From positions 45,985-109,984 of the IMG/VR virus record IMGVR_UViG_3300044956_000431: a stretch of 64,000 nt of DNA; one strand, written 5' to 3'. This document shows, in pieces, positions 22,423 through 46,349 of this stretch; within the stretch, counting starts at the first letter, position 1, and every line of letters begins with the position of its first letter. Position numbers and translations under genes: made by a program. Under the pieces are notes generated by a model. The model made no database searches, was not told the origin of the DNA, and saw nothing but the letters and a program-made list of their open reading frames with translations. This DNA comes from a virus.

Positions 22423-23190
22423 TTATTTCCAATGCTGTAAAATAGTGGTATCATTGACTTGATGCGGCTTTGGATGCCCGTGAAATATCATTACACTAGT
22501 ATCCGGCAACAATGTTGTGCCTGTGCCAGGAGTTCGATGCTTGCGGTGTTGAAAATCATATCCACCATCTAGCAGTTCCCAGCGCCAGCTTTTTACACGA
22601 GTTTGATCAAAATAGCTTACCTGATCAATGGCTATTTTTTCCTGTATATAATCCTGATCGCCGTGCCAGGAAGATCTACGGTGTGCAATATCCCCGGGCT
22701 CAAATTCTCTATAGATATGATTGAAACGTGCTGGGTCAAACCACATCATAGACGAGTTAATAGTAGCTCGTGTTGGGCGAAAAAGATATTTGAAATCTTG
22801 CACTGCCCAGAGTTTGTCTGTTGAAAGCTGCCATATCCAGTCTATGTTGCCTGTAATCACTGTGTCAAGATCAAAATACAACAACGGTCCAGAATGGTAT
22901 CTGTTATCAAATAGCTGTAATTTATACCACCAACTGCGCTTGGGCCCACGTATACCCGACCATTCTTGCAAAGGATGATGTATCATATGCCCAGGAACCA
23001 CTCTATTTTTTTCTGTGTACACATGCATGCGTACAACGGGAGTGAGATTGCGGCATAGGCTGTTGTATAGCCGTTCTACGTAGACCCATTGATACAGCAC
23101 ATCATGAATAAGACATGCGCAATCAATGATTGTAGGCATAGTTGGTTGCAGTCCCAACTTCCTGGCTCTTTTTTCTTCTTTGGTTTCCAT
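22423..23190 (-). CDS. Glycosyltransferase-like protein (DxD type)
   Basis: 255 residues starting METKEEKRARKLGLQ; the ATG overlaps the preceding stop (ATGA). LLYFDLDTVITGNID carries the metal-binding DxD motif of retaining glycosyltransferases (GT8/GT-A-like), with WHGDQDYIQEKI and MIFHGHPKPHQV as later conserved motifs. It would transfer a sugar from a nucleotide sugar to an unknown acceptor. It is the downstream-most gene of an operon with the gene at 23190-24038. The substrate may be virion protein or host surface glycan. Confidence 0.75.
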   Translation of the reverse strand: METKEEKRARKLGLQPTMPTIIDCACLIHDVLYQWVYVERLYNSLCRNLTPVVRMHVYTEKNRVVPGHMIHHPLQEWSGIRGPKRSWWYKLQLFDNRYHSGPLLYFDLDTVITGNIDWIWQLSTDKLWAVQDFKYLFRPTRATINSSMMWFDPARFNHIYREFEPGDIAHRRSSWHGDQDYIQEKIAIDQVSYFDQTRVKSWRWELLDGGYDFQHRKHRTPGTGTTLLPDTSVMIFHGHPKPHQVNDTTILQHWK

Positions 23191-24038
23191 CAGGTGTATA
23201 ATCTTGATTCTAGTCTTTGATACCAGGCGCCTTGAGATATTTCATCAACGGTATATTCTGTGTGGCATATTTCTACCAGCCACTGAGATCGATCTATTTG
23301 ACAAGGACGTTCGATATCTTGTAATGCTGTACTTACCGGCCATGCCAAACTGGTTTGATCTACTATTGTTTTAGTTCCTGCCAGCGCCGCCTGTATTCCT
23401 GGTCCAGCATTATAGTTTACCATGGCATAGCAATCAAATGCAAGATCGTAACTGTCGTAAGTGTTGATGATTTTTTTTGGAAGTTCTATATATACTTTGT
23501 TTGTCAATCTTAGCTTTGAAAAATTCAACGGAGACCTAGGATGCGGACGAACAGCAATGGGTCTATCTGTGACCGATTTCAGTTGGGAAATATTTTGATT
23601 TATCCATTGTTCGATGCTGTCTAAGGAGGCTGTTTGTAAACTTTTGGCATGCTGTGCGGCTATAACGATCTTGGGATTCCTAGAAGTATTGTTGAGTAAG
23701 TCAATGCCCAGTTTACCTGGGCGAGTCCAATCGAGATTTTGTTGATGCCCATAAAAACCCAATGCTGTGATAGAATCAACTGCTATCTTCCAAGTGATGT
23801 TTCGTCGGAGAGTACCTACATCTAGAATGATGACTGGCTTGTTGTGTTTTTTATAATGGTTCCAAATATGTTGATTTGGTTGCATACGACCATTCCAAAG
23901 CACAGACCAAATCACTGCCACATCAGCGTCTAAGGAGTTTTTGATCAGAGAAAAATATCGCCCGGCGCTGTTGAGAAATGCGGCAAGCACGGGCCCAGAG
24001 TTAAGAGCAGTATAATCTGGAAAGTAGGCCAGTTTCAT
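23190..24038 (-). CDS. Glycosyltransferase-like protein, paralogue of 24819-25748
   Basis: 282 residues starting MKLAYFPDYTALNSG at the ATG 24038. An upstream ATG at 24101 is rejected because it crosses a divergent promoter. RPIAVRPHPRSPLNF and MVNYNAGPGIQAALAGTKT match the C-terminal nucleotide-sugar-binding region of capsule-type glycosyltransferases, and the protein at 24819-25748 has the same pattern (RPIVIRMHPGDG, VGYNSTPNVVAVIEG). A palindromic TAAATA element immediately precedes the start, so the mRNA is predicted to be nearly leaderless. Acceptor unknown. Confidence 0.7.
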   Translation of the reverse strand: MKLAYFPDYTALNSGPVLAAFLNSAGRYFSLIKNSLDADVAVIWSVLWNGRMQPNQHIWNHYKKHNKPVIILDVGTLRRNITWKIAVDSITALGFYGHQQNLDWTRPGKLGIDLLNNTSRNPKIVIAAQHAKSLQTASLDSIEQWINQNISQLKSVTDRPIAVRPHPRSPLNFSKLRLTNKVYIELPKKIINTYDSYDLAFDCYAMVNYNAGPGIQAALAGTKTIVDQTSLAWPVSTALQDIERPCQIDRSQWLVEICHTEYTVDEISQGAWYQRLESRLYT

Positions 24039-24039
24039 T

Positions 24040-24055
24040 GGGTAAATATTTACCC
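24040..24055. promoter_or_regulatory. Palindromic divergent late promoter (TAAATA on both strands)
   Basis: A perfect 16-bp palindrome (GGGTAAAT/ATTTACCC) fills the entire gap between two divergent start codons. On each strand TAAATA ends 7 or 8 bp before an ATG (24056 plus, 24038 minus). It is read as one element driving two leaderless genes. Confidence 0.6.
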
Positions 24056-24850
24056 ATGCAACTACCCAACATACTTGGAACTTGTGACCAAGACGAAACA
24101 TTTGTTTACACTGCCTGCGATCTAGGTTATTTTGATGAGTTTGGATCTGTGTTGATCAACAGCATCCGACAAAATACTGATCTAGGAATACATGTACATC
24201 TTTTCAATCCAGTCAAAAATCAGCTAAAATGGTGCAGTGCGCAACAAAGAGTTTCATGCACTTACGAATATGTCGAACCTGCACAGTTTGCCGCATCAAG
24301 CCAAAGATGGTGCAATGTTCCCATAACCGAACCTGAAAAAAGTTTTCACCAACGCACACTCACTGCCATGACCAAAGGTCGAGATCAAAGTATACAAGAA
24401 CGCATGATGAAAACATATTTTGCCTGTGCTAGATTTATACGGCTAGCAGAGATATTTTCCAATTGCCCAGTTATTGCCATTGATGTGGATGCTGTAGTGC
24501 GGTCTACTTTTCCTCTTTTATCTGTAGACAAAGATTTTTACATACATCATATATCAGGAAAGAAAGCACGATTTCTTGCTGGAGGATTGATGTTATATCC
24601 CACAGTTGGCTCTAAAAGATTTCTTGCCCAGTACTCGGCCAAACTAAAAGAATATTTTGAAAGAGATTATGTGTACTGGGGACTAGATCAAGATCTACTG
24701 GATCAACTAGTTCCCCAGTACAACCACGGGCAACTACCTATGTCAATGATTGACTGGAACATGTCCAATGACAGCGCTGTATGGACGGCCAAAGGCACTC
24801 GCAAAGAAGACCAACGATTTATCGATGAGAAGAAGAAATATATCGTCTGA
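24056..24850 (+). CDS. Glycosyltransferase-like protein, leaderless (plus strand)
   Basis: 264 residues starting MQLPNILGTCDQDETF. An ATG at 24038 lies inside the palindromic promoter and is rejected. The N-terminal VYTACDLGYFDEFG, the DxD motif in VIAIDVDAVVRS, the acidic WGLDQDLLDQLV and a C-terminal WNMSNDSAVW fit a GT8-like (GT-A, metal-dependent) glycosyltransferase. It is encoded on the strand opposite to the rest of the sugar island, and its last 32 bp overlap the 3' end of the next gene. Substrate unknown. Confidence 0.75.
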   Translation: MQLPNILGTCDQDETFVYTACDLGYFDEFGSVLINSIRQNTDLGIHVHLFNPVKNQLKWCSAQQRVSCTYEYVEPAQFAASSQRWCNVPITEPEKSFHQRTLTAMTKGRDQSIQERMMKTYFACARFIRLAEIFSNCPVIAIDVDAVVRSTFPLLSVDKDFYIHHISGKKARFLAGGLMLYPTVGSKRFLAQYSAKLKEYFERDYVYWGLDQDLLDQLVPQYNHGQLPMSMIDWNMSNDSAVWTAKGTRKEDQRFIDEKKKYIV

Positions 24851-27151: not shown

Positions 27152-27838
27152 TTATATGTTCCTTTGTTGGCAATATTCAGTTAATATGCGTTCTCTGTGC
27201 CACTCTTCGCTTTGTGGTGTATCTGCAAACTCATGAAAGCAGGGAGTACCCAAGGTATAGTGTAACAGCTTGGCGTTGGTGTTTGGCCCGTATTCATCAG
27301 GCAACCAGTTCCACTCTGGAGGTAGTTCGCCTATATGTTCGTCGTCTAACCAAGAGAAACGGTGAAGAAAACTACCGGTTGAACCTTGGATGAACTCAGG
27401 GGTAAGACGCCTGTTAGGAAAGCTACTACAGTTCCAGAGAATAACACTACTCCAATTTTTCCTAGGATAATCTTCATTCTTTGCTCCAAGATATTTCACA
27501 GGCATGCAAGTTTTGTAATCATGTTTAACAACCATGACATCTTTGTTGGGTTGTTTAAGATTCCAAAGATTCGTGATGTCATCGCGCACAATCATGTCGC
27601 CATCGATAAAGATAGCCCATCCCGACCAATGCATGAGATAAGGTACAAGAAATCTAGTATAGATAAAATGATTGGATCCATCAGTATGCGTTTCATCGTA
27701 ATCTTTAAACAGATTCAACGCAACAGGATGTATGGCCACAGGTTGTGTGGCATGTCTGATAATCGAGTTTGCACAGGTATGGAAGGCTATGGCCTCTCTT
27801 GGATCATACCCTACAAATACAGGAATGATATCACTCAT
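27152..27838 (-). CDS. GT8-like glycosyltransferase
   Basis: 228 residues starting MSDIIPVFVGYDPREAIAFH. FIDGDMIVRDDITNLW contains the DxD motif, KNWSSVILWNCSSF is a conserved active-site stretch, and the C terminus has LLHYTLGTPCFHEF. The motifs match small GT8-like proteins of other environmental T4-like phages. It is coupled to the adenylyltransferase-cupin gene by an ATGA overlap. Acceptor unknown. Confidence 0.8.
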   Translation of the reverse strand: MSDIIPVFVGYDPREAIAFHTCANSIIRHATQPVAIHPVALNLFKDYDETHTDGSNHFIYTRFLVPYLMHWSGWAIFIDGDMIVRDDITNLWNLKQPNKDVMVVKHDYKTCMPVKYLGAKNEDYPRKNWSSVILWNCSSFPNRRLTPEFIQGSTGSFLHRFSWLDDEHIGELPPEWNWLPDEYGPNTNAKLLHYTLGTPCFHEFADTPQSEEWHRERILTEYCQQRNI

Positions 27839-28611
27839 TTTCTTTGTATATCCGTTTCCTCACAACGATCACCATATTGTATTTCAATGATCTTGAGTGG
27901 TTCTGTGCCTTCATTGGCCAGCTGATGCCATTCACGTCGATTAATTACCAACATCTGATGTTCTGTGTATCGACCATGCAGTTCCGCATCTGATGACCTG
28001 TTCAGAGTGTACAGCGTGGCTTCGCCTTGGCTGACAAACCAAACTTCGCCACGATCTTCGTGACGTTGCATACTCAATGTTTGACCTGGGTCCACTGTTA
28101 GTTCTTTGAGTTTGACTCTTTCATTGGGCTCGTGTAACACACGGTAGTATCCCCAGGTGCGTTCAGTCTTGGGTGCTTTCCATTGTTCCAATATCCAAGA
28201 GCTCGAATTATCTTTGTTGAAACCGCCCACTCCAAACACAAACTTGATATTGTTATCGTTGACATCCATCTCTGGAATATTTTCGTTGGTACGATCACCA
28301 CCGTTGGCGAATATTATTTCATCTTGTGGGTACATGGCCCTGACATTGTGTATGGCTTGCTTACTTGACCCGTCACTGTCATCATACACAACACAATGAT
28401 CTACCATTCGTAAACTTTGCACGATGTTGACTCGTTCCTGCATTGGCAGGAAAGGTCGACCTTTTTTGCGTGTGAGCCAGGCGTCAGAGTTGACTCCTAC
28501 TACTAAAATGTCACCCAGTTGTCGAGCAGCCTGGAAGTAGGCGAGATGTCCAGAATGAACAGGGTCAAATCCGCCAGTTACAAGTACGATTTTTTTCATA
28601 TGGGTATTCAT
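27835..28611 (-). CDS. Cytidylyltransferase/adenylyltransferase fused to a cupin domain
   Basis: 258 residues. Residues 5-150 are a nucleotidyltransferase of the HxGH class (GGFDPVHSGHLAYF, then KKGRPFLPMQERVNIV), as in glycerol-phosphate cytidylyltransferase and the heptose adenylyltransferase domain of HldE. Residues about 165-245 form a cupin (QRHEDRGEVWFVSQGEATLY, HQMLVINRREWHQLAN) of the mannose-6-phosphate isomerase C-terminal type. The combination suggests one polypeptide that activates a sugar or polyol phosphate and supports its isomerisation (inference). The start could instead be the ATG at 28599 (MKKIVLVTGG). It heads this part of the sugar island. Confidence 0.8.
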   Translation of the reverse strand: MNTHMKKIVLVTGGFDPVHSGHLAYFQAARQLGDILVVGVNSDAWLTRKKGRPFLPMQERVNIVQSLRMVDHCVVYDDSDGSSKQAIHNVRAMYPQDEIIFANGGDRTNENIPEMDVNDNNIKFVFGVGGFNKDNSSSWILEQWKAPKTERTWGYYRVLHEPNERVKLKELTVDPGQTLSMQRHEDRGEVWFVSQGEATLYTLNRSSDAELHGRYTEHQMLVINRREWHQLANEGTEPLKIIEIQYGDRCEETDIQRK

Positions 28612-39594: not shown

Positions 39595-39602
39595 TATAAA
39601 TA
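39595..39602 (+). promoter_or_regulatory. T4-late-type promoter (TATAAATA), leaderless type
   Basis: A perfect consensus ending 5 bp before the ATG at 39608. A second plus-strand CTAAATA lies 7 bp upstream of it (39582-39588). Confidence 0.75.
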
Positions 39603-39607
39603 TTCTT

Positions 39608-40153
39608 ATGAGCGATACACTAATACTAGCACCGGACTATCAGCCGGTCAACTACTTGCCACTATCAACCATAGACTGGCAAACTGCTATTAAGCTGTTC
39701 TTCTTGGACAAAATCCAAGTGCTAGAATGTTATGATGATTGGATCGTACGAAGCGCCAAGCTGGAGATGCAAGTACCTGCTGTGGCCGTGACCAAAAAGG
39801 GCTTTGGCAAAAATGGCGGCATGCGTTTCAGTAGACAAAATCTATATCTGCGTGACCTGTTTACATGCCAGTACTGTGGCGATACATTCAACAGTAAACA
39901 ACTGACCATCGATCACGTGTTACCACGTGCTCAAGGCGGTACCACTTCATGGCAAAACTGTGTAGCTGCCTGCAAAGAATGTAACAGTAAAAAGAGCAAC
40001 AAGATCTGGCGCCCAAACAAAACCCCAGTAAAGCCCAACTACTGGGCCTTGGTTAACTCAGTGAAAAGTACCTACACTGGTATACGACACCCAAGCTGGA
40101 ATCTTTATCTTGGTCTCAAAGACAACGATTCTAGTATTGCCAAAAATCGCTGA
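39608..40153 (+). CDS. HNH endonuclease (plus strand, leaderless late gene)
   Basis: 181 residues. The HNH core is CQYCGDTFNSKQLTIDHVLP, then TSWQNCVAACKECNSKKSNK: two CxxC zinc pairs around a His/Asn metal site. An N-terminal domain (DYQPVNYLPLSTIDW) precedes it, a form common in phages near terminase. Such proteins may act in DNA packaging or as free-standing endonucleases. A perfect TATAAATA ends 5 bp before the ATG, with no Shine-Dalgarno. The 3' end overlaps the convergent gene by 49 bp. Confidence 0.88.
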   Translation: MSDTLILAPDYQPVNYLPLSTIDWQTAIKLFFLDKIQVLECYDDWIVRSAKLEMQVPAVAVTKKGFGKNGGMRFSRQNLYLRDLFTCQYCGDTFNSKQLTIDHVLPRAQGGTTSWQNCVAACKECNSKKSNKIWRPNKTPVKPNYWALVNSVKSTYTGIRHPSWNLYLGLKDNDSSIAKNR

Positions 40154-45854: not shown

Positions 45855-46336
45855 TATGCTGGCTTCTTTGGTTGTTCGCGACGCAACAAGCGTTCCAATA
45901 GTTCGTTACGATCCAAGATATGCCCTGTGCCTGTTGTAACTTGAGGATTGTCTGAATCTTGATCCATCTTGGCTTTTTGTAGTTGAAGTTGTATCATTTT
46001 TAACTTCTTATTCATCTTGGCTGTTTTGGCAGTGATAGCATGTCCCAGCATGGCACCGGCCACAGCAAAGATTTCACTGGCATAGCGACTGTCTACCTGC
46101 ATGCCCAAGTCCATGAGACTGTCATAGCTTTCCGTGGCTTTTTTGGCCAGCTCGTCCATTTCGGTATCTGATGCTTCAAGGCCGCGCACTGCCGGTAGTG
46201 CAGATTCGATCTTGTCTAAGGTAGCCAAGGATTCGGGCAGTATGGGTAGATTTCCCTCTACGTCGTTACCAGGGTGCGCAGGATCAGTATCATCTTGCCC
46301 TGGCAAATCAAAAAGTTCTTCAAGTTTGCGTGTCAT
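45854..46336 (-). CDS. 16: Terminase small subunit, T4 gp16-like
   Basis: 160 residues starting MTRKLEELFDLPGQDD. The short N-terminal LFDLP motif, the central helices (ESYDSLMDLGMQVDSRYASE, FAVAGAMLGHAITAKTAKMN) and a long basic coiled coil (KMIQLQLQKAKMDQ) fit T4-type gp16, which forms rings that present DNA to gp17. Length is close to T4 gp16 (164). GGTAAATA ends 5 bp before the ATG, so the mRNA is predicted to be leaderless. gp17 is encoded 6 kb away rather than next door. Confidence 0.8.
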   Translation of the reverse strand: MTRKLEELFDLPGQDDTDPAHPGNDVEGNLPILPESLATLDKIESALPAVRGLEASDTEMDELAKKATESYDSLMDLGMQVDSRYASEIFAVAGAMLGHAITAKTAKMNKKLKMIQLQLQKAKMDQDSDNPQVTTGTGHILDRNELLERLLRREQPKKPA

Positions 46337-46341
46337 GTGGG

Positions 46342-46349
46342 TATTTACC
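46342..46349 (-). promoter_or_regulatory. T4-late-like promoter box (GGTAAATA), leaderless type
   Basis: Ends 5 bp before the ATG at 46336; no Shine-Dalgarno. Confidence 0.55.

Follow-up and report, generated by a model that had tools for sequence, protein, structure and literature searches.

A palindromic late-type element as a probable bidirectional promoter between divergent glycosyltransferase genes of uncultured jumbo phages

The closest described counterparts of the locus reported here are the prokaryotic bidirectional promoters of Warman and Grainger, which are sigma70-type and pseudo-symmetric, and whose transcription starts most often lie 18, or 10 or 23, bp apart (PMC12825309, PMC10268837). 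In E. coli, binding at these promoters in one orientation excludes the other, yet RNA output is unaffected at basal activity and competition is seen only once one direction is strongly activated (PMC12825309). Late promoters of the T4 type have a TATAAATA-like −10 element and no −35 element (PMC2988020), as does the ATAAATA late motif of phages CBB and GAP32, the jumbo phage CBB combining this motif with a gp55-like sigma factor without a recognisable gp45 or gp33 (PMC5259590). A search of an open-licence library found neither a phage late promoter that is palindromic nor a bidirectional promoter made of phage late elements.

The window analysed is a stretch of 64,000 nucleotides corresponding to positions 45985–109984 of a probably fragmentary virus record of 110 kb. 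The locus belongs to a group of uncultured aquatic giant (jumbo) phages, and the nearest cultured-phage homologs of the UvsW helicase of the record are found in the jumbo phages Phosso (55%) and Atu_ph07 (52%). The features of the locus are as follows.

24039–24056, unstranded: 18-bp perfect palindrome TGGGTAAATATTTACCCA, touching both divergent start codons
24043–24048, plus strand: TAAATA late-type hexamer of the plus gene, ending 7 bp before its ATG
24047–24052, minus strand: TAAATA late-type hexamer of the minus gene, ending 8 bp before its ATG
24053–24056, plus strand: region in which transcription of the plus gene is predicted to start, near-leaderless and about 6 bp past the hexamer, judged by the TAAATA-N4/5/7-ATG peak across the genome and by T4-type geometry
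24039–24042, minus strand: predicted, near-leaderless transcription start region of the minus gene, from the same peak and geometry
24056–24850, plus strand: predicted 264-aa GT-A fold glycosyltransferase, closest folds LgtC/glycogenin/GT8, with a conserved D143-x-D145
23190–24038, minus strand: predicted 282-aa GT-B fold glycosyltransferase, closest folds the retaining beta-Kdo transferases KpsC and WbbB

The 16-mer GGGTAAATATTTACCC sits exactly at 24040–24055, where the original prediction had placed a perfect palindrome. It is the inner part of TGGGTAAATATTTACCCA, which is 2 bp longer, remains perfectly symmetric and includes the A of the plus ATG. The minus ATG (24038–24036) and the plus ATG (24056–24058) are separated by a gap of 17 bp (24039–24055), so that the 16-mer, said to fill the whole gap, covers 16 of the 17 bp and leaves base 24039 over. 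The TAAATA expected 7–8 bp before each ATG is found at 7 bp on the plus side and at 8 bp on the minus side. As in bidirectional promoters, the −10-type elements overlap on the two strands: the hexamers share 2 bp and together form the core TAAATATTTA. Alternative upstream starts are open in both frames (TTG 24038 for the plus gene, ATG 24101 for the minus gene), but homologs of both proteins align from ATG 24056 and ATG 24038, respectively.

That both flanking genes encode glycosyltransferases, as originally predicted, is supported by fold matches of AlphaFold models, which were built from alignments of relatives. The model of the plus protein (pLDDT 93.9) matches LgtC (1g9r, E 3.7e-8, TM 0.52), and D143 and D145 are invariant in the homolog alignment; the GT-A fold and the DxD motif together give a structure-supported assignment as a GT8-like glycosyltransferase. 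The model of the minus protein (pLDDT 93.2) matches KpsC (8fux, E 4.1e-9) and WbbB (8csb, E 5.2e-8) with TM-scores of about 0.5, and its product is likewise predicted, with structural support, to be a glycosyltransferase of the KpsC/WbbB-like GT-B group. Because the TM-scores are near 0.5, the family of both proteins is read at fold level only. Sequence searches against Pfam, PHROGs and the PDB returned nothing convincing for either protein; among cultured phages the plus protein has no match and the minus protein has distant ones only. Neighbouring genes carry Glyco_transf_25, Glyco_transf_8 and FkbM methyltransferase domains, and the region therefore appears to be a sugar-modification cluster. 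A cytidylyltransferase-like and a mannose-6-phosphate isomerase/cupin domain are fused in a single ORF at 27835–28611 on the minus strand.

A search for close relatives with the plus protein yielded only one near-identical record. For a test that is not biased towards the palindrome, loci were picked by the plus protein alone through an alignment-based search, and the minus homolog is the divergent neighbour in 80/80 of them. The gap could be measured in 75 of these loci, giving 32 distinct gap sequences. A palindrome that was not conserved in relatives would have counted against the original prediction, but it is conserved at the corresponding divergent starts: the overlapping core TAAATATTTA is present in 20/32 gap sequences, compared with an average of 0.05 and a maximum of 2 overlapping cores in 2000 rounds of shuffled gaps. 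The TAAATA of the plus gene lies 5–7 bp before its ATG in 30/32. Two separate back-to-back hexamers, one per gene, are found in the 5/32 gap sequences of one clade, in which the minus gene has its own hexamer 6–9 bp from its ATG. A further 5/32 retain the plus hexamer only, and 2/32 have neither hexamer close by. In one lineage (L006, L024 and L033), a central TA insertion gives TAAATATATTTA, in which both hexamers are kept and the overlap is gone. The hexamer-to-ATG distances, 7 and 8 bp here, are 7 and 9 bp in most relatives, and the commonest distance genome-wide is 5 bp.

On a tree of the 32 gap types, the overlapping state is found on both sides of the midpoint root, and there are several isolated losses of the minus-gene hexamer. 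The outer arms vary and are no longer symmetric in, for example, AGTAAATATTTAACC (L064) and ATTAAATATTTAACC (L023). The palindromic element is not obligatory, given the five gap sequences without a minus hexamer and the two with neither hexamer nearby. Selection seems to act on each hexamer and not on the inverted repeat itself, since separate, TA-inserted and asymmetric gaps still keep TAAATA. Of the proposed symmetric late promoter for both genes, the late-type hexamer for each gene is supported, and obligatory symmetry is not. Among loci L255–L334, the loss is asymmetric, several lineages having lost the hexamer of the minus gene and hardly any that of the plus gene.

Homologs of the minus protein split into two groups by their divergent partner. 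Nearly all loci with the GT8-like partner conform to CAT-[GA]GTTAAATATTTAACC-NN-ATG. In L052 the same gene pair has a long gap and no palindrome, and L065 has a different partner gene and the right half of the palindrome only. About 45 loci (L007, L012, L020–L022, L025–L028 and others) pair the minus-gene homolog with another divergent partner (MKYTVITTF...) across a gap of 11–12 bp, in which one TAAATA serves the partner gene; the second gene is often GTG-started and has no obvious hexamer. In the apparently unrelated phages of L121, L122, L123, L136, L143 and L177, CATCCCTAAATATTTAATAAAATG lies between small divergent ORFs (57–58 and 68 aa), a possible independent case. In another group (L124, L165), the divergent ORFs on either side of TAAATATTTA are 72 and 83 aa long. 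A pattern scan for CAT-N3-TAAATATTTA-N5-ATG preselects the palindrome and was kept out of all frequency claims.

The hexamer is part of a wider arrangement in these genomes. In the record and two relatives, the distance from TAAATA to ATG peaks at 4–5 and 7 bp. Across 11 related genomes (G000, G002–G005 and G007–G012), TAAATA-N5-ATG occurs 129 times compared with 23 for the reversed pattern, while TAAATA-N12-ATG occurs 19 times compared with 35 for its reversed control. A comparable excess is absent in T4, GAP32, PA5oct and Phosso, and is at most slight in Atu_ph07. Shine-Dalgarno sequences are absent from 70/72 TAAATA-led ORFs; in the other genes of three genomes, counted with a simple ORF caller, they are present in 35/110, 97/307 and 129/337, about a third. 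The 25 bp upstream of TAAATA contain no strongly conserved block, and hence no −35 element, and the TA preceding TAAATA is not conserved at N4/N5 sites. The genes led by TAAATA include portal (phrog_213) and virion structural proteins in relatives G002 and G003, along with endonucleases and radical-SAM proteins. Genes of the form TATAAT-N6-ATG, often with TTGAC upstream, include a UvsW-type helicase and exonucleases. Late-type TAAATA and early-type TATAAT both appear spaced to put the start on the ATG, for example at 39595–39610 and 46336–46347 of the window. Judged from spacing, a clade-wide leaderless promoter grammar would put transcription starts at or beside the start codon.

A gp55-like late sigma factor is encoded in four relatives (G002, G003, G004 and G005; phrog_12791, E down to 3e-65). 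No sigma gene was detected in the probably fragmentary 110-kb record, and a search of five records, run without a positive control, found no gp45-type sliding clamp (phrog_223). From the motif, the genes it leads and the sigma gene, we infer that TAAATA is of the late class.

These observations are best explained if the palindrome acts as a bidirectional phage late promoter, from which two divergent and near-leaderless mRNAs would arise, a reading to which we assign a probability of about 0.78. The two overlapping TAAATA would be the −10 equivalents, which a gp55-like late sigma factor probably recognises together with the host RNA polymerase; the polymerase could open the site in either orientation. 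Transcription would begin about 6 bp beyond the hexamer that is read, within 0–4 nt of each ATG. If the genome-wide N5 spacing means that transcription begins on the A of the start codon, the plus gene would start at about 24054 and the minus gene at about 24041; these positions are 13 bp apart and leave leaders of 2–3 nt. One mRNA would encode the LgtC/GT8-like and the other the KpsC/WbbB-like glycosyltransferase. Transcription itself, the start sites, sigma usage and the lack of a leader are what we infer from motif and spacing.

With 2 bp shared between the hexamers, a template opened in one orientation should not be open in the other as well, and steric mutual exclusion at a single template is likely. 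The exclusive expression that the original prediction drew from this geometry is therefore likely as a steric fact and, as regulation, no more than a possibility. Late promoters can be strong and infection provides many templates, so that competition may or may not have an effect. It is conceivable, though rather doubtful, that the relative amounts of two surface-sugar glycosyltransferases are set by polymerases competing for this one 18-bp site, and that the lineage repeatedly relaxes this coupling, either through loss of the minus hexamer or by moving the hexamers apart.

Other explanations of the palindrome were weighed against these data. In first-order Markov sequences of the window, 0.95 perfect 16-bp and 0.23 perfect 18-bp palindromes are expected per 64 kb, and with about one 16-bp palindrome expected in any such stretch, length alone is weak evidence and would allow a chance palindrome without function. 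The position and conservation of the palindrome, unlike its length, are not near chance: the core TAAATATTTA occurs once in each of three genomes, every time at this junction, and the palindrome persists there although the flanking proteins have diverged to about 40% identity, which contradicts the chance explanation and makes it hardly credible. A role in RNA, as a start-site hairpin or a terminator within a longer transcript, could draw on the folding of 24030–24070 at −11.7 kcal/mol (z −3.5 compared with shuffles). However, no terminator was called at the palindrome, the pairing of its arms is not maintained in relatives, and both of the genes' own transcripts, diverging from within it, would begin past its centre; such a role is very improbable.

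A perfect inverted repeat between divergent genes occupies the classic position of an operator, and could be bound by a dimeric regulator of both genes instead of, or in addition to, serving as two promoters. The core TAAATATTTA is present as a single copy, always at this divergent junction, in the 110-kb record and in two related records of 337 and 344 kb, and the 16-mer has no second copy in the 110-kb record even with up to 2 mismatches, a uniqueness that would suit such a site. In relatives, however, the outer arms lose their symmetry and only one TAAATA per side stays, the TA insertion displaces the half-sites by 2 bp, and in one clade the two hexamers stand apart; moreover, TAAATA stands alone before many late genes, and no linked regulator candidate was found. 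A regulator-bound operator is consequently unlikely. It is also quite unlikely that TAAATA is a promoter for the plus gene only, with the minus hexamer a by-product of self-complementarity and the minus gene transcribed from further upstream, although the near-constancy of the plus hexamer and the loss of the minus hexamer in several unrelated lineages fit this. A second hexamer does not arise automatically, since among 108 ATG-proximal TAAATA sites in the three genomes TTTA follows in only 6/108, the number expected from this one locus on both strands in three genomes, and the separate-hexamer clade supplies the minus gene with a hexamer of its own. The terminator, RNA hairpin, chance and dimer-operator explanations were all rejected. 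Since both TAAATA are kept in the separate-hexamer and TA-inserted gaps, two promoters are the better explanation, ahead of an RNA hairpin and of a dimer operator.

The series of overlapping, inserted, separated and half-lost hexamers amounts to a natural mutagenesis set, in which one could ask whether selection acts on the competition of polymerases for a shared promoter. The locus also points to an uncultured jumbo phage clade in which early- and late-type promoters lie directly at the start codon, so that transcription starts would be predictable from sequence.

Compared with T4-type, CBB and GAP32 late promoters, the element shares its placement upstream of structural genes and the presence of a gp55-type sigma gene, here in relatives. 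The T4-type octamer lies about one helical turn upstream of the transcription start; here TAAATA is the common part and the leading TA is not conserved. The element abuts the ATG (N4–N7) in this clade, and by the same counts does not do so in T4, GAP32, PA5oct or Phosso. As in leaderless mRNAs, the distance between promoter and ATG would have transcription begin on the start codon or beside it, with no Shine-Dalgarno sequence; the differences are that leaderlessness is here deduced from spacing only and that a single 18-bp site would give rise to two such mRNAs in opposite directions. The promoters of Warman and Grainger resemble the locus in their overlapping −10-type elements on opposite strands, the symmetry of a short AT-rich sequence, divergent starts (here predicted) and sterically exclusive orientations (here deduced from the 2-bp overlap). 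In contrast to those promoters, the symmetry here is perfect, the predicted start spacing of about 13 bp differs from 18, 10 or 23 bp, and the whole intergenic region would be the promoter. Bidirectional promoters have so far been described for sigma70-type bacterial promoters, and the present locus would extend them to phage late elements.
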